Shown piece after piece: positions 211 to 17,448 of a DNA stretch of 64,000 nt. The translations under genes and the position numbers were made by a program. This DNA comes from Alphaproteobacteria bacterium (GTDB lineage Bacteria > Pseudomonadota > Alphaproteobacteria > UBA8366 > Aestuariispiraceae): contig JASJDC010000003.1 of assembly GCA_030065235.1 (NCBI GenBank), positions 124,001 to 188,000 on the forward strand. Direction: 5' to 3'. Numbering within the stretch: the first letter of the stretch is position 1; every line of letters begins with the position of its first letter. Below the pieces are notes generated by a model that was given only the letters and a program-made list of their open reading frames with translations, was not told the DNA's origin and made no database searches.

Positions 211-2379
211 ATGACCGACGGCTATAGCGAACGATCAGACCTGCGGGTCTCAAGCCTGCTCGCGGATTTCATCGAGCATGACGTTCTGCCTGGGACCGAC
301 GTTTCGGCGGCGGATTTCTGGTCCGGCCTGTCGGCGCTGATCCATGAGTTCGGCCCGCGCAATCAGGCGCTGCTGGACAAGCGCGCCGATCTGCAGGCGA
401 AGATCAGCGCCTGGCACCGCGCTCGGCTGGGTCAGCCGCACGATCACGCCGCCTATAAGGCGTTCCTTGAGGGGATCGGGTACCTCTTGCCGGAGGGGGA
501 CGCGTTCGAGGTTGAAACCGCCCATGTCGACGCCGAAATCGCACATCAGCCGGGACCGCAACTTGTCGTGCCGGTCACCAACGCGCGCTATGCGTTGAAT
601 GCGGCGAACGCACGCTGGGGCAGTCTGTATGACGCCTTCTACGGCACCGACGCGTTGGGCGCGGCGCCGAAGCCGGGTCCGTATGACCGTGGGCGGGGCG
701 CCCGCGTCGTCGCCCGGGCGCGGGTGTTTCTCGACCAGGCCTTCCCGATTGAAGGGGTCAGCCACGCTGATGCACGTCGCTACTACGTGCATGGCGGACA
801 GCTTCTCATCGACGATCAGCCGTTGTCTGAGCCGGAGAAGTTCGTCGGCTATCGCGGCGATCCGCGCGCGCCAGAGGCGGTGATGCTGCGCAATAACGGT
901 TTGCATGTCTGGCTGGTCTTCGACCGGGCGCATCCGATCGGCGCGCGCGATCAGGCCGGCCTTGCGGACGTCCGTTTAGAAAGCGCGATCTCCGCCATCA
1001 TGGATTGCGAAGATTCGGTCGCCTGCGTCGACGCCGAGGATAAGGTGCTGGCCTATCGCAACTGGCTTGGCTTGATGAAGGGCGATCTTGAGGAGAGCTT
1101 CGAGAAGGGCGGCCAAACCGTCACCCGTCGGCTTAGCCCGGATATCGACTATATCCGACCGGACGGGACGGACGGGAGCGCGGGCGGCGCTTTGAAGGGG
1201 CGCGCCCTGATGCTGGTCCGCAATGTCGGCCACCTAATGCGCAACCCGGCGATCCTCGACCGCGGCGGCCAAGAGGTCTTCGAGGGGCTGATGGACGCGA
1301 TGGTCACCGCGCTGATCGCCAAACACGATCTCGCGAAGACCGAGGGGCCGCGCAACTCGACCGAAGGCTCGGTCTATGTCGTTAAGCCGAAAATGCATGG
1401 TCCCGAAGAGGTTGCGTTTGCTGACGAGGTCTTCACGCATGTAGAAAACGCCCTTGGGTTGCCGCGCTATACGGTGAAGTTGGGGATTATGGACGAGGAG
1501 CGTCGCACCTCAATCAACCTGAAGGAATGCATCCGGGCGGCGAAACACCGTGTCGCTTTCATCAATACCGGTTTCCTGGATCGGACCGGGGACGAGATCC
1601 ACACCTCGATGGAGGCCGGCCCATTCAGCCGCAAGGACTTCATCAAGCGTAAGGGCTGGATCGCCGCCTACGAAAACCAGAATGTCGATATCGGCCTGGA
1701 ATGCGGCCTGTCCGGAAAGGCGCAGATCGGCAAGGGTATGTGGGCGATGCCGGACAAGATGGCCGCGATGCTGGAAGCCAAGATCGAGCATCCGAAGGCC
1801 GGGGCCACCTGCGCCTGGGTGCCCAGCCCGACGGCGGCGACCCTGCACGCGCTGCATTATCATCAGGTCGATGTCCTGTCGGTTCAGGCGGCGTTGAAGA
1901 AAGGCGGGCGCCGGGCCTATGTGGACTCGGTCCTGGAGATCCCGGTCGCGAGTTTCCAGAAATGGTCCGATCCGATGATCCGGCGCGAGGTCGAAAACAA
2001 TGCGCAAGGCATTCTCGGCTATGTGGTGCGCTGGATCGACCAGGGCGTCGGCTGTTCGAAAGTGCCGGACATCAACGATGTCGGCCTGATGGAGGACCGC
2101 GCCACCTGCCGCATCTCGGCGCAGCATATCGCCAACTGGCTCCATCATGGCGTGATCGGCGCCGGTGAGGTGAACGACATTCTGCGCAAGATGGCTGAGA
2201 TCGTCGACCGGCAGAACGCCGACGATCCGTCTTACAAGCCGATGGCGCCCGACTTTGACGGCGTGGCGTTCCAGGCCGCCAGCGATCTGATCTTCAAGGG
2301 CGTCGAGCAACCATCCGGCTATACCGAACCGCTTCTACACGCGCATCGCCTGACGGTGAAGGCGCAGCGCAATACGTAG
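211..2379 (+). CDS. glcB: Malate synthase G
   Basis: Condenses glyoxylate with acetyl-CoA to malate in the cytoplasm, closing the glyoxylate shunt. The 722-residue product matches the G-type length (about 720-730) rather than the shorter A-type. Recognisable blocks include [38 protein letters not shown] and [10 protein letters not shown], the last carrying the catalytic Asp region of the family. I prefer the ATG at 211 to the GTG at 205, because the GGGG at 202-205 sits at ribosome-binding distance from 211 and overlaps the GTG. The gene stands alone; the next gene converges on it. No isocitrate lyase is in this window. Confidence 0.95.
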
Positions 2380-2435
2380 CTAACCGTCTTCAGTCAGTGA
2401 GCATGGCGTACTGCGGCGGCGGAGCGGCGCTAGGC

Positions 2436-2831
2436 TCAAGAAACTTGACCGTTGCGGTCATTTTGTTCGGCCCGGTCAAGCAAATCGCGGACGGCCTGTG
2501 TCAGATGAGCGTATTGCTCGGCGTTGGTGTCGCCGAAAGCCTCGTCCCGATTGCTGGGCATGTCCTCGTACTGGATCGGCGCATCGAACTGGCTTTCGGT
2601 GAAGTCCCACCGTCGCCCGTCGATGACATTGTAGAAATGCCAGATGTCTCGATAAGGCGTTTTCAGAATATCGCCGCCAAGCAAGTCATGCGCGACCAAA
2701 GCTGTGACGCCGCAATGACCGGCGGCCGGATTGTCGGCGCGCCAAAGCGAGCTTGATTTCAGGCTCCATGCTGTTGGAAGCACGGACAATAGATCCGCAA
2801 TGCTTGCCTGAAGAGTTGTATCTTTGCTCAT
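2436..2831 (-). CDS. YunG-family protein
   Basis: A 131-residue cytoplasmic protein resembling the small YunG family named after a Bacillus protein of unknown function. The visible block is a Cys in GHCGVTA about 40 residues in, then ILKTPYRDIWHFYN and DGRRWDFTESQFD. A Cys-then-His order is compatible with a cysteine-peptidase-like fold, but that is inference. There is no signal peptide or membrane segment. It converges on glcB with 56 bp between and is separated by 100 bp from the upstream FrhB-like gene. Its codon use looks slightly less GC-rich than its neighbours. Confidence 0.65.
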   Translation of the reverse strand: MSKDTTLQASIADLLSVLPTAWSLKSSSLWRADNPAAGHCGVTALVAHDLLGGDILKTPYRDIWHFYNVIDGRRWDFTESQFDAPIQYEDMPSNRDEAFGDTNAEQYAHLTQAVRDLLDRAEQNDRNGQVS

Positions 2832-2931
2832 ACCCGATCTCGCGGCCGCCGCGGCCCAGCTAGAATTCTGACCGTGTTCTAATGCGCCTGAGGCGCCGTC
2901 ACAAGATCGGCCTATTCTGGGGTCTCCGCCT

Positions 2932-4149
2932 CTATCGTCTATTGGGGTCCACTTCCCGCTCTCCCGACCCGGCGGTCAGTCCGTAAGGCGCGACCAGGTC
3001 CCAGACATGGTTGGGGATCATCGCCTTCATTCGGCGCGGATAGGCACGGCGTAGGTGCAGCACGGTTTCGGCAGCCTTCATCTCCAAACGGGCGCGGGCG
3101 AATTCCAGGCCGCGCGGGCCGATTCTAGGCTGCAGCCAGGCGACCAACGGGCGCAGCCATTTCGGCATGCGGCGCAATGGCAGGCCGCCGGCGGCGCGTT
3201 CCGTATTGGCAATGAAACCCTTCACCGCCGCCGCCCGCTTCCCGGCCTGACCGGGCGGCGCGACGATGACCTCCTGTCCGAGCGTCGCCAGCAGTTCCTC
3301 GCCCCGCGTATTGCGGACAATCAGCCATTGGTCGCCGTCGCCGCCCATATAACCGACCGTGATATCCGCCAGGCTGTTGGTGTAATCGACACAGGTGCGG
3401 CAGGTCAGCGGGAAGAAATCGCTCGGCAGATCGCTGATCGGCAGTTTCAGGAAGGGGATTTCCCGTTTGCTGCCATCCTCGAAGCGCAGCTCCACCTGAT
3501 AGTCCGCGCGGAATTCAAGATAGGTGATCGTTTCTGGACGGTCCGAGAGCAGGGCGAGGAACTTGTGGAAATTCTCAGTCGTCGTGTTATCCGAACATGG
3601 CGTACCGATGACATAGAGTCGGTCGAAACCCAATTCCTTTTCAAGCGCGCGCAACGCGTATATCTGGCAGGGGATGCCGATCACCGCCAAGCGCCTGTGT
3701 CCCGCGGCCAACGCTGGTTCGAGCAAGGCCAGCAGCGGCGCATAGCCCATGCGCATGCCCCGGGCGCGCGCCATGTCCTCCGGCTTGGTGATCAACAGCG
3801 GCTCCGGGCGCCAACGATCTTCTGCGCTGGGTCCCACGGTCAGGACCGCGTCCACCGTCCCTTGTTCGAGCAGCCGTTGTCCGATCCGGGTCGCGATCCC
3901 GGTCCATTGCGCGCCTTCAAGCGGCGGGTTCAGGCGCGCTTGCAGCATCCTGCGCGTCGGCCCGAAGAAACGCTCGTCGGACTCGCCGCCCAACCGCGTG
4001 CGGCCGTGGACCTGCGCCTCCAGTCCCGGATAGTCCGGCGCGATGAACTGACAGGCGCGGCCGCAGCGCTTCGGATCCGCCGTCCGGGAAATCCCGCAAT
4101 CCGTGCAGAGCGAGCGGTGTGGCGCGTCCGGCGCGATTGTGTCGCTCAC
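2932..4149 (-). CDS. FrhB/HCAR-type iron-sulfur flavoprotein (F420 hydrogenase beta-subunit family)
   Basis: A 405-residue protein of the coenzyme F420 hydrogenase/dehydrogenase beta-subunit family, which includes FrhB, plant 7-hydroxymethyl chlorophyll a reductase and the divinyl reductase BciB. The N-terminus carries a Cys cluster (CTDCG, then two Cys within about 18 residues). The central part has IGIPCQIYALR, GTPCSDNTTTENFHKF and LTCRTCVDYTN, typical cluster- and flavin-binding blocks. The GTG start lies 4 bp after the stop of the CaiD-like hydratase, so it is probably the last gene of that operon. That suggests a role as a reductase partner for CoA-ester chemistry, but the substrate and electron donor cannot be read from the sequence. 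Confidence 0.75.
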   Translation of the reverse strand: MSDTIAPDAPHRSLCTDCGISRTADPKRCGRACQFIAPDYPGLEAQVHGRTRLGGESDERFFGPTRRMLQARLNPPLEGAQWTGIATRIGQRLLEQGTVDAVLTVGPSAEDRWRPEPLLITKPEDMARARGMRMGYAPLLALLEPALAAGHRRLAVIGIPCQIYALRALEKELGFDRLYVIGTPCSDNTTTENFHKFLALLSDRPETITYLEFRADYQVELRFEDGSKREIPFLKLPISDLPSDFFPLTCRTCVDYTNSLADITVGYMGGDGDQWLIVRNTRGEELLATLGQEVIVAPPGQAGKRAAAVKGFIANTERAAGGLPLRRMPKWLRPLVAWLQPRIGPRGLEFARARLEMKAAETVLHLRRAYPRRMKAMIPNHVWDLVAPYGLTAGSGEREVDPNRR

Positions 4150-4153
4150 AGCG

Positions 4154-4948
4154 TCACTTTCCTCTCCAGACCGGTTCGCGTTTTTCGGCGAAGGCGCGGG
4201 CGCCTTCCAACTGATCCTCGGACCGGTAGAGCCGCTCCACGGTTTCGAACTGACTGCGGGTGATCTTATTGAGCGCGTCCTGAAATTTCATATCTTCCGC
4301 CTCGCGCACCACTTCCTTAATCGCCGCGTAGACCAGAGGCGGGCCGGACGCTAAATGGGCGGCAAGGGCGCGCGCTTCCGGCATCAGGTTAGCCGGCTTG
4401 TGGATCCGGTTTATTAGACCCCAGCGCGCCGCCTCTTCTGCGTCGAGCCAGCGCCCGGTCAGCAGCATCTCCATGGCGATATGATAGGGGATGCGCTTCG
4501 GCAGTTTGATCGAGGCGGCGTCAGCCACTGTGCCGGAACGAATTTCCGGCAGGGCGAAGGTCGCCGTGTCCGACGCCAGAATGATGTCCGCGGAAAGCGC
4601 GAGCTCCAAGCCGCCGCCGCAGCAAATCCCATTCACCGCCGCAATGACCGGTTTGTTCAGGCCGCGCAATTCCTGCAGCCCGCCGAAACCGCCGACGCCA
4701 TAATCCCCATCGACCGCGTCGCCCTCGGCGGCGGCTTTCAGATCCCAGCCGGGGCAGAAGAACTTGTCGCCAGCGCCGGTGACGATCGCGACCAGGAGCT
4801 CCGCATCGTCGCGGAACTCGGTGAAGACCTGCCCCATGATCCGGCTGGTCGCCAGGTCGATGGCGTTGGCCTTGGGGCGGTTCAAGGTGACTTCCAAGAC
4901 CTTGCCGTCGCGGCGCGTCTCGATTGGGCCAGTCTCCGTATCGCTCAT
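4154..4948 (-). CDS. caiD: CaiD-like enoyl-CoA hydratase (crotonase family)
   Basis: A 264-residue crotonase-fold hydratase. It follows E. coli CaiD (crotonobetainyl-CoA hydratase) through the blocks RPKANAID, GWDLKAAAEG, KPVIAAVNG, ALPEIRSG and the C-terminal AFAEKREPVW. Both glutamates of the crotonase active site are present, one in LELAL and one in ALPEI. The usual GAGG loop after the second Glu reads DAAS here. The ATG overlaps the stop of the upstream acyl-CoA synthetase by 4 bp (ATGA). CaiD-like proteins are also annotated as general enoyl-CoA hydratases, so carnitine as substrate is plausible but unproven. caiB is not present. Confidence 0.8.
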   Translation of the reverse strand: MSDTETGPIETRRDGKVLEVTLNRPKANAIDLATSRIMGQVFTEFRDDAELLVAIVTGAGDKFFCPGWDLKAAAEGDAVDGDYGVGGFGGLQELRGLNKPVIAAVNGICCGGGLELALSADIILASDTATFALPEIRSGTVADAASIKLPKRIPYHIAMEMLLTGRWLDAEEAARWGLINRIHKPANLMPEARALAAHLASGPPLVYAAIKEVVREAEDMKFQDALNKITRSQFETVERLYRSEDQLEGARAFAEKREPVWRGK

Positions 4949-7047
4949 CTACACTCGCCTTGCCGTTGCGGGGCTTGAATGACCAGCGCGTCGGCGGCGA
5001 CCGCGCGGTCCGGCCCGCAGATCAGTGGGTTGATCTCGACCTCCGACACCGCGCCGATGTGGTCCTGAACGTAGGCTTGCACGGCTAACACCGCGGCGAC
5101 AATGGCCTGTTGGTCGACCGGCGGCGCGCCGCGATAGCCTTCCAGGATCGGCGCGATCTTCAAACGCCCCAGTGCGGTCATGATATCATCCTCGGCGACC
5201 GGCAACAGCAGATGCGTCTTGTCCCGCCAGATCTCCGTCCGGACCCCGCCGGCGCCGAGCGTCAGCAGATAACCGTGGGCCGGGTCGAGGGTGACGCCGA
5301 TCAAGAGCTCCAACACGCCTTCCCCGATCATCTCCTCGATCAGGAACGGAGCGCCCGTCATTGCCTCCGCAGCCGCCCGAACCGCGTCTGCGTTGGTCAG
5401 GTTCAGGCGCACGGCCCCGCTTTCGGTCTTATGCGCTGCGCCTTCCTGTTTCAGGACGACCGGATAGCCTAGGCGCTCGGCGGCGGCGACCGCGCCATCG
5501 ACCGAGTCCGCGCGTTCCGATCGGGGGATCGCAACGCCTTGCGCCGCCAGAGCGGCCTTCGCCTGCGCCTCATTGAGCGGGAAGCCTCCTGGGGTCGGTG
5601 CGGGAAGCAGGATCGGCGCCGGCTGCACCCACGGCGCGCCCAACCAGGCGGCGGATTCGGCGGCGATTAAGGCCTCGGCCATGCCGCAGAGCGGCGCGAC
5701 GCAAGCCGCTGTCATCCGCGCGGCGACTTCTTCCGGCAGGTTTTCCGGCAGACTGACGACCAGCGCCGTTGGTACGCCGCTCTGTTCATACGCGTCGATC
5801 ACAGCTTTCAGGCCCGCCTCCCACGCCTGCGCGGAACAGCGGTCGGTCCGCGGCAGGTCCATCACGATCATCGCCAGCGCGAGATCGGCGCTCGCATCCA
5901 TCATCGCGGCGAACGCCGCCGCCATCGCCCTTCGGTCGTTCCAGATATAAGTGTGGTAGTCGAGCGGGTTGGCCAGCGCCACCATCGGGCCGAGGGCCGC
6001 GCGCAACCGTTTCTCCTGGCGCTTGGTGATCGGCGGATAGGTAAGAGCGCGGCTGACGGCGAGATCGGCCATCAAACTGGCCTCGCCGCCCGAACAGGAA
6101 AGTGAGGCGATCCGGTTCGATATCAGCGGTCCGCCGACATGCAGCAGCTTCAATGTCTCGAGAAACTCTGGCAGCGTAGCGATCCGCGCGATTCCCAGGC
6201 GTTCCAACAAAGCGGATCCCGCCGCGTCGTCGCCGGCCAAGGACGCGGTGTGCGAGATGGTCGCGCGCCGCGCTTGTTCCGAGCGTCCGATTTTCAGCGC
6301 GACAATGGTTTTGTCCAACCGGCGCGCGTCCGCCGCCAGAGTCTCGAAGGCGCGGACGTCGCCGATCCCCTCGATATAGAGGCCGAGGGCGGTGACACGC
6401 GGATCATCCAGCATCGCGCGCCCGATCTCAGCGATCCCGGTTTGCGCCTGATTGCCGCAAGTAACGACATAGGCCAAGGGCAGGCCGCGCCGCTGCATCG
6501 TAATGTTGAGGGCGATGTTGGAGGATTGGGCGACGATGGCCACGCCGCTCTCGACCCGGGCGCCGCCATGCTGGTCCGGCCAGAGCAGCGCGCCGTCGAG
6601 ATAGTTGATCAGCCCGTAGCAGTTGGGCCCGATGATGCGCATCTCCCCCGCCGCCTCGAGAAGAGCGTCGGTGAGGTCTGCGCCATCCTTAGCCTCCGCC
6701 CGCGCCTCGAGAAAGCCGGAGGCGAAACAGACCGCGCCGCCCGCGCCCCTCTTGCGAAGGCTCCTGACCACCTCAATGGTGGCGTGCCGGTTGACCCCGA
6801 TGAAGGCGGCGTCTGGCGCGGCCGGCAGGGACTCGACCGTCGCAAAGGCGGCGCGGCCTTGGATTTTTCGGCGCGTGGGATGAACCGGCCAGATCGGACC
6901 CGAAAACCCGATCTTTTCGCACTGATCGATCACATTCTCGCACCAGGCGCCGCCGCCGATCACGGCGATCGATTTGGGCCGCAAGAGCCGATCGAGGGCG
7001 CCCGCCACCGTCGGCGCCCTAGGCCCCGAGCGGGCGCAAGAGCTCAC
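4945..7047 (-). CDS. NDP-forming acyl-CoA synthetase (acetate-CoA ligase family)
   Basis: A 700-residue fused NDP-forming acyl-CoA synthetase. The N-terminal CoA-binding domain contains LLRPKSIAVIGGGAW. A ligase domain follows with ISHTASLAGDD, whose His is the phospho-carrier of the family, and the C-terminal ATP-grasp half starts near residue 490 (PVVLKQEGAAHKTESGAV). It activates a carboxylic acid to its CoA ester using ATP with release of ADP and phosphate. The GTG start at 7047 overlaps the dehydrogenase by 29 bp; another GTG lies inside, near 7008, just before the conserved domain, so the start is unsettled. It takes the place an AMP-forming CaiC ligase has in enteric carnitine operons. 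Confidence 0.85.
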   Translation of the reverse strand: MSSCARSGPRAPTVAGALDRLLRPKSIAVIGGGAWCENVIDQCEKIGFSGPIWPVHPTRRKIQGRAAFATVESLPAAPDAAFIGVNRHATIEVVRSLRKRGAGGAVCFASGFLEARAEAKDGADLTDALLEAAGEMRIIGPNCYGLINYLDGALLWPDQHGGARVESGVAIVAQSSNIALNITMQRRGLPLAYVVTCGNQAQTGIAEIGRAMLDDPRVTALGLYIEGIGDVRAFETLAADARRLDKTIVALKIGRSEQARRATISHTASLAGDDAAGSALLERLGIARIATLPEFLETLKLLHVGGPLISNRIASLSCSGGEASLMADLAVSRALTYPPITKRQEKRLRAALGPMVALANPLDYHTYIWNDRRAMAAAFAAMMDASADLALAMIVMDLPRTDRCSAQAWEAGLKAVIDAYEQSGVPTALVVSLPENLPEEVAARMTAACVAPLCGMAEALIAAESAAWLGAPWVQPAPILLPAPTPGGFPLNEAQAKAALAAQGVAIPRSERADSVDGAVAAAERLGYPVVLKQEGAAHKTESGAVRLNLTNADAVRAAAEAMTGAPFLIEEMIGEGVLELLIGVTLDPAHGYLLTLGAGGVRTEIWRDKTHLLLPVAEDDIMTALGRLKIAPILEGYRGAPPVDQQAIVAAVLAVQAYVQDHIGAVSEVEINPLICGPDRAVAADALVIQAPQRQGECR

Positions 7048-8179
7048 GGCTGATGATGTGGCGCTGGATCTCCGAGGTGCCGTCCCAGATTCGCTCGACC
7101 CGCGCGTCGCGCCAGAAGCGCTCGATCGGGAAATCGTCCATCAGGCCCATGCCGCCGAAAATTTGCAGCGTCGCGTCGGTGACGCGCGCCAGCATCTCGG
7201 AGGCGTAGAGTTTGGCGCTGGCGATCTCGCGGTTCGCGGGCAGGCCCTGATCCAAGCGCCAGGCGGCGGCCAAGGTCAGCCAGTCAGCCGCGTCGATCTC
7301 GGTAATCATGTCGGCCAGTTGGAAACTCACCCCTTGGAACTTGCCGATCTGCTGGCCGAACTGTTTTCTTTCAGAGGCGTAGTTGAGACCCAGATCGAAG
7401 CAGCGTCGGGCGCGGCCGACGCTCATCGCCGCAACCGTAATGCGGGTCGCATACAACCATTCGTTCATCACGGCGAAGCCGCCATCGACGTCGCCCAGCA
7501 CCTGTTCTTTCGGCAGGCGGCACTCCTCGAAATACAGGATCTTGTTCGTGTAGCCGCGGTGCGAGACAGAGTTGTATCCGTCCCGGACCTCAAAACCGGG
7601 CGTCCCGCGATCGACGAGAAAGGCGGTGATGCGTTTCTTGGGCCCCTTGTCGGTCTCATCGACCCCGGTCGCGACGAAGACGATGAAAAAATCCGCATGC
7701 TCGGCGCCGGAGATAAAGTGTTTCGAGCCGTTGACGATCCAGTCGGCCCCGTCCGGAAGCGCCGTACATTTCATCCCGCGCACGTCTGAGCCCGCATCCG
7801 GCTCGGTCATCGCCAGTGCGTCCATCCGCTCGCCGCGCACTGCGGGCAAGAGGTAGCGTTCGCGCTGGTCGCCTTCGCAGGCCATCAGGATGTTTTGCGG
7901 CCGTCCGAAGAAATGCGTCAGCGCCATCGACCCTTGGCCCAATTCGCGCTCGACCAGGGCGAAATCGAGATGCGACAGGCCGGCGCCGCCGACCGTTTCG
8001 GGGAAATTGCAGGCGTAAAAGCCCAGCTCCAGCGTCTTGCGCTTGATCTCGTCCGCGATTTCCTGCGGGACCGCGCCGGTGCGTTCGACCAGCGCCTCAT
8101 GCGGATAGATCTCGTTCTCGACGAAACTGCGCACCGTCGAGACGATCATCTCCTGCTCTTCGCTGAGACCGAATTGCAT
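7019..8179 (-). CDS. Acyl-CoA dehydrogenase, CaiA-like context
   Basis: A 386-residue FAD-dependent acyl-CoA dehydrogenase with the standard three-part fold: MTEPDAGSDV in the middle domain, QIFGGMGLM and RFWRDARVERIW near the C-terminus. In medium- and short-chain members the base is the Glu of IYEGT; here the equivalent reads IWDGT, so residue 366 is Asp. It is first in an operon with the NDP-forming synthetase, the CaiD-like hydratase and the FrhB-like protein. It could oxidise an acyl-CoA or, like CaiA, work in the reductive direction. Overall similarity looks nearer to general acyl-CoA dehydrogenases than to CaiA, so the substrate is unknown. Confidence 0.85.
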   Translation of the reverse strand: MQFGLSEEQEMIVSTVRSFVENEIYPHEALVERTGAVPQEIADEIKRKTLELGFYACNFPETVGGAGLSHLDFALVERELGQGSMALTHFFGRPQNILMACEGDQRERYLLPAVRGERMDALAMTEPDAGSDVRGMKCTALPDGADWIVNGSKHFISGAEHADFFIVFVATGVDETDKGPKKRITAFLVDRGTPGFEVRDGYNSVSHRGYTNKILYFEECRLPKEQVLGDVDGGFAVMNEWLYATRITVAAMSVGRARRCFDLGLNYASERKQFGQQIGKFQGVSFQLADMITEIDAADWLTLAAAWRLDQGLPANREIASAKLYASEMLARVTDATLQIFGGMGLMDDFPIERFWRDARVERIWDGTSEIQRHIISRELLRPLGA

Positions 8180-8285
8180 CGCCGCTTCTCCCCGGACTGC
8201 TTACGGCGATCTTGTCCCCTTAAGGCATGATGCGCGACCGGAAAAAGCGACAGGCTTGGGCGCTCCAGCGACTTGGGCGGAGGCG

Positions 8286-9404
8286 TCAGCCGTCGGGATT
8301 GGGGCGCGGTTTGCCGACGGCGCCCCGGTCGAAGGCGATGGATTTGATAAGGCAATAAACGGCCTGGTCCGTGCGAAGGCCCAAGTCGGCGATGGCGTGG
8401 CGGGTGATCCGGGCGCGCAGCCTCTGGCCGCCAATATCGATCTTCAACTCGGCGAAAGCGGTCTTTGGCTCCGCAGCGATCTCGGTGATAACCCCGGTCA
8501 GGATATTTCGGATGCTGACGCCGCGCGGCCGCTCCGTCGCGACCGAAACGTCGCGCGCCCGAATGCGCAGCCGCACCGTCTCGCCGGGGATCAGATGCGC
8601 GGCGGGCGCGACGACCTGCTGGCCGGACACATCCAGCGTGGAGGTCAGATAGGTCAGGTTGTTGGATTGGACTTGGGCGGTAAGGACCACGCCGGCTTCG
8701 AAACGGCCAAGCTCCGGTCCCAGATCCAGGCGCTCGAAGATCTCGCTGACCGGACCCTCGGCGGTGATCTTGCCCTCGGACAGCACCATCACGCGGTCGG
8801 CCAGGCGCGACACCTCGGCGATGTCGTGGCTGACATAAATGATCGGCGCGCGGAAGGACGTCGCCAGTTCCTGCAAATAGGGCAGGATTTCTTCCTTGGC
8901 CCGGCGGTCGAGCGCCGCCAAAGGCTCGTCCATCAACAGGACCGACGGCTGGGACAGCAAGGCGCGACCCAACGCCACCCGCTGCCGCTCTCCGCCTGAA
9001 AGGGTTGCGGGCGACCGGTCCAACAGCTTCGGCAAGGCGAGCGTCTCGATCACTTGATCGCGGTCAATCCTGTGGCCGCCTTTGGTCCGGTTGCGGCGGC
9101 GCCAGGCGTAATCCAAGTTGCCGGCGACGCTGAGATGCGGAAACAGGCTGGCTTCCTGGAAAACATAGCCGACGGGCCGCTTGTGGGCCGGTCTAAACCG
9201 GCGCTTGGCGTCGTCCTGCCAAGTCGCGCCCCCCACTTGCACCCAACCCGACAAGCGCCGAAGCCCTGCCAACGCGCGCAGAACCGTCGTCTTGCCGCTG
9301 CCCGAAGCCCCGAACAGAGCGGTGACGCCCGACGGCGCCGTCGACATCGCCAGATCGATCTTCAGGGCGCCGACCGACCCTCTCAAAGCGGCGTCGATGC
9401 TCAC
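8286..9404 (-). CDS. modC: Molybdate ABC transporter ATP-binding protein ModC
   Basis: The 372-residue ATPase of the molybdate importer. It shows Walker A (GASGSGKTT), the signature LSGGERQRVALGRAL, Walker B (VLLMDEPLAALD) and the switch His in YVSHDIAEV. The last third, from about residue 290, is the molybdate-binding MOP/TOBE domain (LRIRARDVSVATERP), which separates it from generic ABC ATPases. It starts at a GTG with one base between it and the modB stop, so the two are almost certainly co-translated. Confidence 0.95.
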   Translation of the reverse strand: MSIDAALRGSVGALKIDLAMSTAPSGVTALFGASGSGKTTVLRALAGLRRLSGWVQVGGATWQDDAKRRFRPAHKRPVGYVFQEASLFPHLSVAGNLDYAWRRRNRTKGGHRIDRDQVIETLALPKLLDRSPATLSGGERQRVALGRALLSQPSVLLMDEPLAALDRRAKEEILPYLQELATSFRAPIIYVSHDIAEVSRLADRVMVLSEGKITAEGPVSEIFERLDLGPELGRFEAGVVLTAQVQSNNLTYLTSTLDVSGQQVVAPAAHLIPGETVRLRIRARDVSVATERPRGVSIRNILTGVITEIAAEPKTAFAELKIDIGGQRLRARITRHAIADLGLRTDQAVYCLIKSIAFDRGAVGKPRPNPDG

Positions 9405-9405
9405 C

Positions 9406-10083
9406 TTAGCGTCCCACCATGTCGAGGCGGCGGTTCAGCATCATCATCGCCAGAATCACGACAAAGGCGAAGCCGGCCATGCCGCCCGCCAGGATATGCG
9501 CCTTCTCCCATTGCAGGGTCTCGACGAAGCCGTAGATCGAGACCGATAGAACTTCGGTCTCGCCGGGGATCGCGCCGCCGATCATCAGGACGACGCCGAA
9601 CTCTCCCATCGTGTGCGCGAAGCCAAGCACCGCGCCGGTCAGGAAGCCCGGCCGCGCCATCGGAACCGCGACTGTGAAGAAGGCGTTGAGCGGCGAGGCG
9701 CGCAGGGTCGCCGCGACCTCCAGCGGCCGGTCCCCAATCGCCTCGAACGCGTTGCGCAAGGGCTGGACGACGAAAGGCAGGGAATAGAGGATCGATCCGA
9801 AGACCAGCCCCTCGAAGGTGAAGGCGAAGCTGCGCATGCCGAAATAGGGGGCCAGCGCGCCGCCGGGCCCGTCCGGCCCCAGGAACAGCAGCAGATAGAA
9901 ACCGAGAACGGTGGCCGGCAGGACCAGCGGCAGGGCGACCAGTGCGGCCACCGCTTCCTTCCACCGGGCCTGCGATCGCGCCAGCCACCAGGCCAACGGC
10001 GTGGAGAGGACCAGCAGGCAAAGGGTCGAGACCGTGGCCAGGGCCAAGGTCAGTCGGATGGGCGACCAGAGTTCTTCCATCAC
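9406..10083 (-). CDS. modB: Molybdate ABC transporter permease ModB
   Basis: A 225-residue inner-membrane permease with about five hydrophobic helices and the EAA loop that docks the ATPase ([21 protein letters not shown], followed by HTMGEFG). Length and the [11 protein letters not shown] block match the ModB family. It lies 21 bp downstream of modA and one base upstream of modC in a standard modABC order. Confidence 0.93.
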
Positions 10084-10104
10084 GGTACGGGCGGTTCCCT
10101 GTTC

Positions 10105-10896
10105 TTATTCTTCGCCGACGCTGTAGCCGAAGCGGCGCAACACCCGCTTTGCTTCGTCGGATTTCAGGAAATCGAGAAAGGCCAGGGCCGCTTGCTTGTC
10201 AACCGCGCCCGCCAGCAGCACGGCGTCCTGGGCGATCGGAGCGTGATGGTCTTCGGGCGCGATCCAGTATCGGTTCGGATCGATCGGCGCCTCCCCGATA
10301 GCTCGGATTTGCGACAACGCGACGAAGCCGAACGCGGCGGCGCCGGAGCGGGTGAATTGAAAGGCCTGCGCCGCCGTCTTGCCCCGCACCAGACGCGGTC
10401 CCAGGGCTTCGGTCAGCCCGAGCCGGGCGATGACTTGCGCCGCCGCGCGTCCATAGGGCGCCAACCGCGGATCGGCCAGGGCGACCTTTTCCGATTGGCT
10501 CTTGGTGAGTTCTTCGGGTGTGGCCTGCCGGTTCGCCAGACCACTTAGCAGCGCAAGGCGACCATGAGCGTAGGTGAAACGGGTCTCCGCCAAGGCCCAG
10601 CCATTCTCGACGGCTTGGATGGGCCGCGCCTGATCCGCCGCCAGGAAAACGTCATAGGGCGCCCCTTGGCCGATCTGGGCGAAGAGCTGGCCGGTGGCGC
10701 CGGCGCTGATCCGCAAAGTGTGGCCGGTGACCGCGGCGAAATCCGGTTCCAGCGCACGCAGCGGCGCCAGGAAGTTGGTCGCGACTGCGACGCGCACCGT
10801 CCCGGCGGACGCCTCGACGGCGCCGACGAGCGCGATGGTCAAAGTTGCGACGCCAAGGCGCAGCGCGGCGCGGCGGATTTGGCTGGTGCGGACCAT
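10105..10896 (-). CDS. modA: Molybdate ABC transporter substrate-binding protein ModA
   Basis: A 263-residue periplasmic binding protein. An N-terminal export signal (basic start, hydrophobic core LGVATLTIALVGA, small-residue cleavage zone near ASAG) is followed by VAVATNFLAPL and GATGQLFAQIGQGAPYDVF, the oxyanion-binding loops of ModA. It is the first gene of modABC. The 165 bp between it and the divergent cupin gene must hold the promoter; I could not define a ModE-type operator there. Confidence 0.92.
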   Translation of the reverse strand: MVRTSQIRRAALRLGVATLTIALVGAVEASAGTVRVAVATNFLAPLRALEPDFAAVTGHTLRISAGATGQLFAQIGQGAPYDVFLAADQARPIQAVENGWALAETRFTYAHGRLALLSGLANRQATPEELTKSQSEKVALADPRLAPYGRAAAQVIARLGLTEALGPRLVRGKTAAQAFQFTRSGAAAFGFVALSQIRAIGEAPIDPNRYWIAPEDHHAPIAQDAVLLAGAVDKQAALAFLDFLKSDEAKRVLRRFGYSVGEE

Positions 10897-16219: not shown

Positions 16220-17448
16220 AGCCGCACCGGATCGGGAAACCGGTCCGGCGGCGCGACGCCGGCGAAGCGCGCCTGCCGCTCGACCTCCGACCGGATCGCC
16301 GCCAGCCGACCGGCCGAGGGCCGGACGCCGGGTTCCAGCCACAGTCCCTTCACTGTCATGGCGTCCGATCCTGCAGCGGTCATATCAATTCGTCCAATCA
16401 GTCGGTCGCCCTCCAGCAGCGGGAAGACGTAGTAGCCGAATTTCCGTTGCGCCTCGGGTACGAAGATTTCGATCCGATAATCGAATCCAAAAATATGGGC
16501 GAGGCGCTTTCGGTCGCGGATCACCGGGTCGAACGGGCTTAAGACGCGGACCCGTTTCGGCGGCGCCGGCGCTGCGGCGACCAGCGCCTCAATCTCTGGA
16601 ACCGCGAAGGCGGGCTTGGCCTTACGGCCGCCGACGCCCTCCACCGTCACAGGGACGATCACGTCAGCGCTCTGCCGTGCGCACCAAGCCTTCGCCTCCG
16701 CCGGGCTGATCAGGTCGAAAAAGCGGGCGATATCGCCCGGCGCGCCGAAACCGAGGCGGCGGATCGCTTCGCGGCAGGCCCAGTCGATTAGGGCGTCATC
16801 TTCAGGCGCCTCTGTCCGGTGCGCCTCGGGAATCACCCGTTCCGTCAGATCGTAGACCTTTTGAAACCCGTCGCGCTTGGCCACCGCCAAACCGCCGGTG
16901 CGCCAATGGAATTCCAGGGCGATCTTGCTGGCGCGCCAGTCCCACCAACCTTGGCTGGCCTTCCTGGGGCCGGGCCCGGCCTCCTCCTCGAAATGCCGCG
17001 CCATCAGCGGCCCTTCCTTGGCGATGCGCTCGGCCACATGATCGAGCGCCTTGTGGAAGTCCTTGCCGTGCCAGCGGCGATAGCCGGCCTCCAGCCGGGC
17101 CGCCTCGCGCCGAAACCGGGCGCGCCAATAGGGGAAGAATTCGACTGGGATCAGCGAGGCGTCATGAGTCCAATTTTCGAATAGACGCGCGGCGCCGGGC
17201 GCTTTCGGCGCATGCAGCGTGCTGAGCAATCTTGGGCGATAGGTCTGGCTACGCCCGTGCAGGATCATATGGTGCGCGCGCTCGACCGTCTTCACGCTGT
17301 CCACCTGGACATAGCCCATGCGCCCGATCAGCCCGTCCAATCCGTCTGCGTCGATCTTCCGATAAGGCGGGTCCGACAGGCCCTGTAGCCACAGGATCAG
17401 GCGGCGGGCTTCGGCGGCGGTCAAGGTCAATGGCGTGGCGGCGGCCAT
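16216..17448 (-). CDS. YcaQ-family winged-helix DNA glycosylase
   Basis: A 410-residue protein of the HTH_42/YcaQ family, whose characterised members unhook DNA interstrand crosslinks. Supporting features are the length, the N-terminal LTLTAAEARRLILWLQGL, IGRMGYVQVDSVKTVERAHHM and the C-terminal LSPFDPVIRDRKRLAHIFGF, YYVFPLLEGDRLIGR. The frame stays open upstream to 17643, but the conserved start is MAAATPLTL at 17448 and the extension would run past the divergent Uup start, so I use 17448. Confidence 0.82.
   Translation of the reverse strand: MAAATPLTLTAAEARRLILWLQGLSDPPYRKIDADGLDGLIGRMGYVQVDSVKTVERAHHMILHGRSQTYRPRLLSTLHAPKAPGAARLFENWTHDASLIPVEFFPYWRARFRREAARLEAGYRRWHGKDFHKALDHVAERIAKEGPLMARHFEEEAGPGPRKASQGWWDWRASKIALEFHWRTGGLAVAKRDGFQKVYDLTERVIPEAHRTEAPEDDALIDWACREAIRRLGFGAPGDIARFFDLISPAEAKAWCARQSADVIVPVTVEGVGGRKAKPAFAVPEIEALVAAAPAPPKRVRVLSPFDPVIRDRKRLAHIFGFDYRIEIFVPEAQRKFGYYVFPLLEGDRLIGRIDMTAAGSDAMTVKGLWLEPGVRPSAGRLAAIRSEVERQARFAGVAPPDRFPDPVRL

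Follow-up and report, generated by a model that had tools for sequence, protein, structure and literature searches.

A carnitine-type gene trio beside a probable BciB gene in one operon-like run of an alphaproteobacterial genome

In a 64,000-nucleotide stretch of an Aestuariispiraceae genome (the window), four consecutive genes of the minus strand appear to bring two unrelated functions into one operon-like run. The first three, here called the trio, would turn gamma-butyrobetaine into L-carnitine, while the fourth, a gene of the FrhB family, would encode BciB, a reductase of bacteriochlorophyll synthesis. We hold this reading of the sequences with good confidence. It is built on gene order, conservation, neighbours and co-occurrence, all of which were observed directly.

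Layout of the four genes and their surroundings

The run occupies positions 2932-8179 of the window. The first gene, in the direction of transcription, encodes an acyl-CoA dehydrogenase, putatively acting on gamma-butyrobetainyl-CoA (7019-8179, minus strand; 386 aa; Pfam Acyl-CoA_dh). It is followed by the gene for an NDP-forming acyl-CoA synthetase, a putative gamma-butyrobetaine (and/or carnitine/crotonobetaine)-CoA ligase (4945-7047, minus strand; 700 aa; Pfam CoA_binding_2/Succ_CoA_lig/ATP-grasp_5), by that of a CaiD-like, putative crotonobetainyl-CoA hydratase (4154-4948, minus strand; 264 aa; Pfam ECH_1), and by that of a putative BciB-type (FrhB-family) 3,8-divinyl-chlorophyllide 8-vinyl reductase (2932-4149, minus strand; 405 aa; Pfam FrhB_FdhB_N/C). 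The Pfam domains of all four proteins exceed their gathering cut-offs, in agreement with the domain guesses of an earlier note on this DNA. The dehydrogenase and ligase frames overlap by 29 bp, a figure that hinges on the choice of ligase start, as the R. leguminosarum homologue has 684 aa and the true start is perhaps further in. The ligase and hydratase frames overlap by 4 bp, and 4 bp separate the hydratase gene from the FrhB-family gene. Coordinates and spacing thus match the note's description of four tightly coupled minus-strand genes with overlaps of 4-29 bp or a 4-bp gap.

Directly upstream, on the same strand, are the molybdate transporter genes modABC (8286-10896), with modC about 106 bp from the dehydrogenase gene; a YunG-family gene (2436-2831) lies downstream. 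Scanning 2300-8700 gave one promoter-like and three terminator-like sites, no more than the shuffle means (1.3 and 4.8, respectively), which is uninformative on the limits of the operon. Elsewhere in the window (16562-16650), ARAGORN calls an 89-base tRNA-Ala with the anticodon agc, a call that is odd in a bacterium and may be false.

The trio and the probable carnitine route

The ligase query matched 51 of the 59 genomes of relatives, many of them at about 30% identity and likely through paralogues. The best, high-scoring place was taken in 18 genomes, 13 from the same family and five from one other family of the order. The order and strand of dehydrogenase, ligase and hydratase are kept in 17 of these 18 loci, and the contig of the 18th starts inside the ligase; the conservation of the first three genes is more than chance. 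A carnitine dehydrogenase homologue adjoins the trio in 15 of the 18, a GlxA-type regulator stands beside it in 13, and a beta-keto-acid cleavage enzyme (BKACE) in 12. Several of the missing neighbours are due to contig ends (L131 and L147 are cut short). At L140, which has long flanks, the trio and the regulator are present and the carnitine dehydrogenase is not adjacent.

The same genes are found on plasmids of other bacteria; the ligase matched 473 plasmid records, and four loci were chosen among the best 25. The annotations on the plasmid of R. leguminosarum 248 run from a GlxA regulator through a BKACE-type protein (named a 3-keto-5-aminohexanoate cleavage protein), carnitine 3-dehydrogenase, dehydrogenase, ligase and carnitinyl-CoA dehydratase to an ABC transporter. 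The carnitine dehydrogenase of this cluster scores 938.6 bits, where the cut-off is 592, and the window proteins are 75.1% (dehydrogenase), 54.5% (ligase) and 75.8% (hydratase, to the carnitinyl-CoA dehydratase) identical to their counterparts. A Paracoccus plasmid and Sinorhizobium sp. K101 carry the same gene set. In Ruegeria pomeroyi, the trio is accompanied by a GlxA regulator, with no carnitine dehydrogenase nearby. On the megaplasmid of this species (L165), a DJ-1/PfpI family gene (10029-10634) separates the ligase gene from that of the carnitinyl-CoA dehydratase.

From this context, the trio very probably serves the aerobic conversion of gamma-butyrobetaine to carnitine, by a route that has a precedent in soil bacteria. 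The NDP-forming ligase would convert gamma-butyrobetaine to gamma-butyrobetainyl-CoA, which the acyl-CoA dehydrogenase would oxidise to crotonobetainyl-CoA. The CaiD-like hydratase would then yield L-carnitinyl-CoA, and release of CoA would give L-carnitine. Finally, a carnitine dehydrogenase, a BKACE and a thioesterase, for which there are unlinked candidates, would lead from carnitine to glycine betaine. The trio of this genome stands apart from such carnitine genes. The candidate carnitine dehydrogenase (C2:803729-804682) is 56% identical to a cluster enzyme and scores 373 bits, below the cut-off of 414; the BKACE candidate (C12:320664-321530) shares 68.7% identity with one of the cluster BKACEs, and the thioesterase candidate (C15:48249-48692) shows 41% identity. 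The substrates and the direction of the trio are proposals, as are all the enzyme activities.

The individual proteins were compared with characterized families. The best NCBIfam model for the hydratase is crotonobetainyl-CoA hydratase (PRK03580), at 319.8 bits and under the curated cut-off of 500; a search pattern for its active site matched none of the sequences scanned. The motif RIWDGTSEIQ is common to the window dehydrogenase and its relatives. Within it lies the position of the usual catalytic Glu; Asp is found there in the window protein, as in eight of 17 relatives, the other nine having Glu. The ligase retains the SHT(A/S)S motif. At 42-50% identity to the ligases of the 18 relatives, it is the least conserved member of the trio, so its substrate could differ. 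This low conservation would suit a trio whose substrate is another small acid, such as DMSP (the substrate of DddX) or a phenylpropanoid acid, the CoA ester of which would be dehydrogenated and hydrated; over residues 24-689, the ligase also matches a DMSP lyase of known structure from its superfamily. That match reaches 184 bits, however, against 624 for the ligase of the R. leguminosarum carnitine cluster (a rough comparison, as the scores come from different programs), and the neighbours of the trio in other genomes are carnitine genes. We therefore regard another acid as an unlikely substrate.

The carnitine route resembles two known systems. The enteric cai operon is CaiTABCDE, and it shares with the window a CaiD-like hydratase and an acyl-CoA dehydrogenase. 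In the window, however, an NDP-forming ligase stands in for CaiC, CaiB is absent, and the dehydrogenase is far from the crotonobetainyl-CoA dehydrogenase (CaiA) model (165 bits for a cut-off of 540). The CaiD-like hydratase would fit a trio running reductively, as in enteric bacteria, with carnitine or crotonobetaine as electron acceptor. This is highly improbable given the dehydrogenase score and the carnitine-oxidising genes that lie beside the trio in other genomes, and the direction of the trio is probably oxidative, unlike that of cai. The earlier note had proposed a variant carnitine/crotonobetaine route lacking CaiC and CaiB, and for the trio this proposal very probably stands, with the NDP-forming ligase replacing CaiC and carnitine genes as neighbours elsewhere.

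The closer parallel is in S. meliloti, where Bazire et al. in 2019 reportedly found, by gene context, five enzymes leading from gamma-butyrobetaine to glycine betaine. Its gamma-butyrobetaine/L-carnitine pathway is likewise reported to use a CoA ligase, a dehydrogenase and a hydratase, then a carnitine dehydrogenase/thioesterase and a BKACE, and the same gene neighbourhood occurs in the related Sinorhizobium sp. K101. It differs in that the ligase of the window is one fused protein, whereas BcoAB is two by name, and in that the downstream candidates are scattered here. The S. meliloti BcoAB has been used as an ATP-dependent gamma-butyrobetaine:CoA ligase (PMC8364193). A single S. meliloti enzyme oxidises carnitine to 3-dehydrocarnitine and also forms glycine betaine from betainyl-CoA (PMC12482172, citing Bazire et al.). 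The route of the trio is most likely the one already described in S. meliloti.

The FrhB-family gene and its probable role in bacteriochlorophyll synthesis

Structural match, cysteines and distribution all point to BciB, the ferredoxin-dependent 8-vinyl reductase, as the most likely identity of the fourth protein. Its task in bacteriochlorophyll synthesis would be to reduce chlorophyllide at the C8-vinyl group, with ferredoxin as the electron source. Among solved structures, it matches best the plant 7-hydroxymethyl chlorophyll a reductase, HCAR, with 247.7 bits along residues 9-389 and 81 bits for the next match, and the BciB and HCAR identities cannot be told apart by the tests run. The NCBIfam models for the F420-reducing hydrogenase beta subunit (FrhB) and FpoF give it 66-78 bits, far below their cut-offs of 269-475. 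Eight Cys are invariant in 83 of 83 sequences, enough for two [4Fe-4S] clusters, and this fits the two such clusters reported for BciB (PMC4214422, PMC13297055). The BciB gene of Acaryochloris was likewise annotated frhB (PMC4836224).

In the genome collection, 205 relatives of the protein were found, and the best 80 (67-78% identical) come from Roseobacter, Hyphomicrobium, Rhodocyclus, Acetobacteraceae and others. Genes of reaction-centre L/M proteins (PF00124) are present in 76 of 79 genomes analysed among those bearing these 80 homologues (37 of 39 and 39 of 40); one of the 79, G073, is apparently the same genome as G002 of the relatives set, with matches at identical coordinates. The three genomes without them are all MAG-type records, and in one of these the contig of the homologue (L063) also bears bchI/bchD-type matches. 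Strong matches (>600 bits) occur in three of the 59 genomes of relatives, all three with PF00124, which is itself found in eight; the chance of this by random placing is 0.0017, relatedness being ignored. The genome of the window has two PF00124 genes, and BchI, BchY and BchZ above curated cut-offs, all on contig C1, while the window is on C12. A photosynthesis gene cluster that includes these genes lies at about 176-229 kb of C1 (L122-L124 of G000), its other members being named by eye.

A BciA-type query had no match in this genome, which leaves the FrhB-family gene as the only conventional 8-vinyl reductase candidate found there. Four phototrophic relatives (G008, G012, G013 and G021) have reaction-centre genes and neither a strong BciB nor a match to the same BciA query, so 8-vinyl reduction is not always carried out by BciB or BciA enzymes. 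In some bacteria, chlorophyllide oxidoreductase can do it (PMC4214422).

The neighbourhood of bciB is variable. Among 82 loci, no neighbouring gene recurs in most; the largest cluster elsewhere has 10 loci, and the position of one 14-locus cluster marks it as BciB itself read in antisense. In 11 of the 80 homologue loci, tblastn matches to bchI/D/C/X/Y/Z-type proteins (D, C and X named by eye) lie within the DNA examined, which indicates that BciB is usually outside the main photosynthesis cluster. Only one plasmid record matched over 80% or more of the query; in it, from the purple sulfur bacterium Thiodictyon, bchI, bchO and a gene for magnesium chelatase subunit D are close to the bciB homologue. 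The window protein is thus like BciB and its plant relative HCAR in its FrhB family, its best match, its eight invariant Cys and its phototroph distribution, and it is unlike BciB in that its gene ends a carnitine-type operon and is not beside photosynthesis genes.

Place of the fourth gene in the run

The 4-bp gap makes co-transcription of the hydratase gene and the putative bciB plausible. This gap and the shared strand would also suit a single pathway in which the FrhB-family protein partners the acyl-CoA dehydrogenase, handing its electrons on to ferredoxin or some other carrier. Such a pathway is extremely improbable, however, as none of the 18 other trios has an FrhB-family gene, the distribution of this gene tracks that of the reaction-centre genes, and no trio lies beside any of the 80 collection homologues or of two from family members, on contigs that are in some cases short. 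Stated by locus, the trio is found at none of the best 80 of 205 BciB homologue loci (some contigs being too short for the flank), where some weak matches to trio proteins, at 25-34% identity, are generic; nor is it near the bciB genes of the two family members (L148 and L149), and BciB is in none of the 18 trio loci of relatives.

The four-gene linkage expected in other genomes thus held for the first three genes (17 of 18 relatives) and failed for the fourth (0 of 18 trio loci and 0 of 82 BciB loci). The earlier suggestion that the FrhB relative serves as electron partner of the dehydrogenase can be set aside: the protein is of BciB/HCAR type, occurs almost only with reaction-centre genes, and is unlinked to the trio elsewhere among the loci examined. 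On this evidence, bciB stands outside the CoA route. Its adjacency to the trio is seen only in this genome and looks lineage-specific. That the position of bciB, last in a carnitine-type operon, links the maturation of bacteriochlorophyll to the supply of quaternary amines, as a regulatory coupling of pigment and osmolyte metabolism in this lineage, seems very doubtful.

A hybrid pathway, as this run illustrates, can be suggested by a neighbour present by chance together with a family name as generic as F420 hydrogenase beta subunit. In phototrophic proteobacteria, bciB should not be taken for an F420 gene. Where a gene annotated "acetate--CoA ligase family protein" adjoins that of a CaiD-like hydratase, it is a good candidate for a gamma-butyrobetaine-CoA ligase gene.
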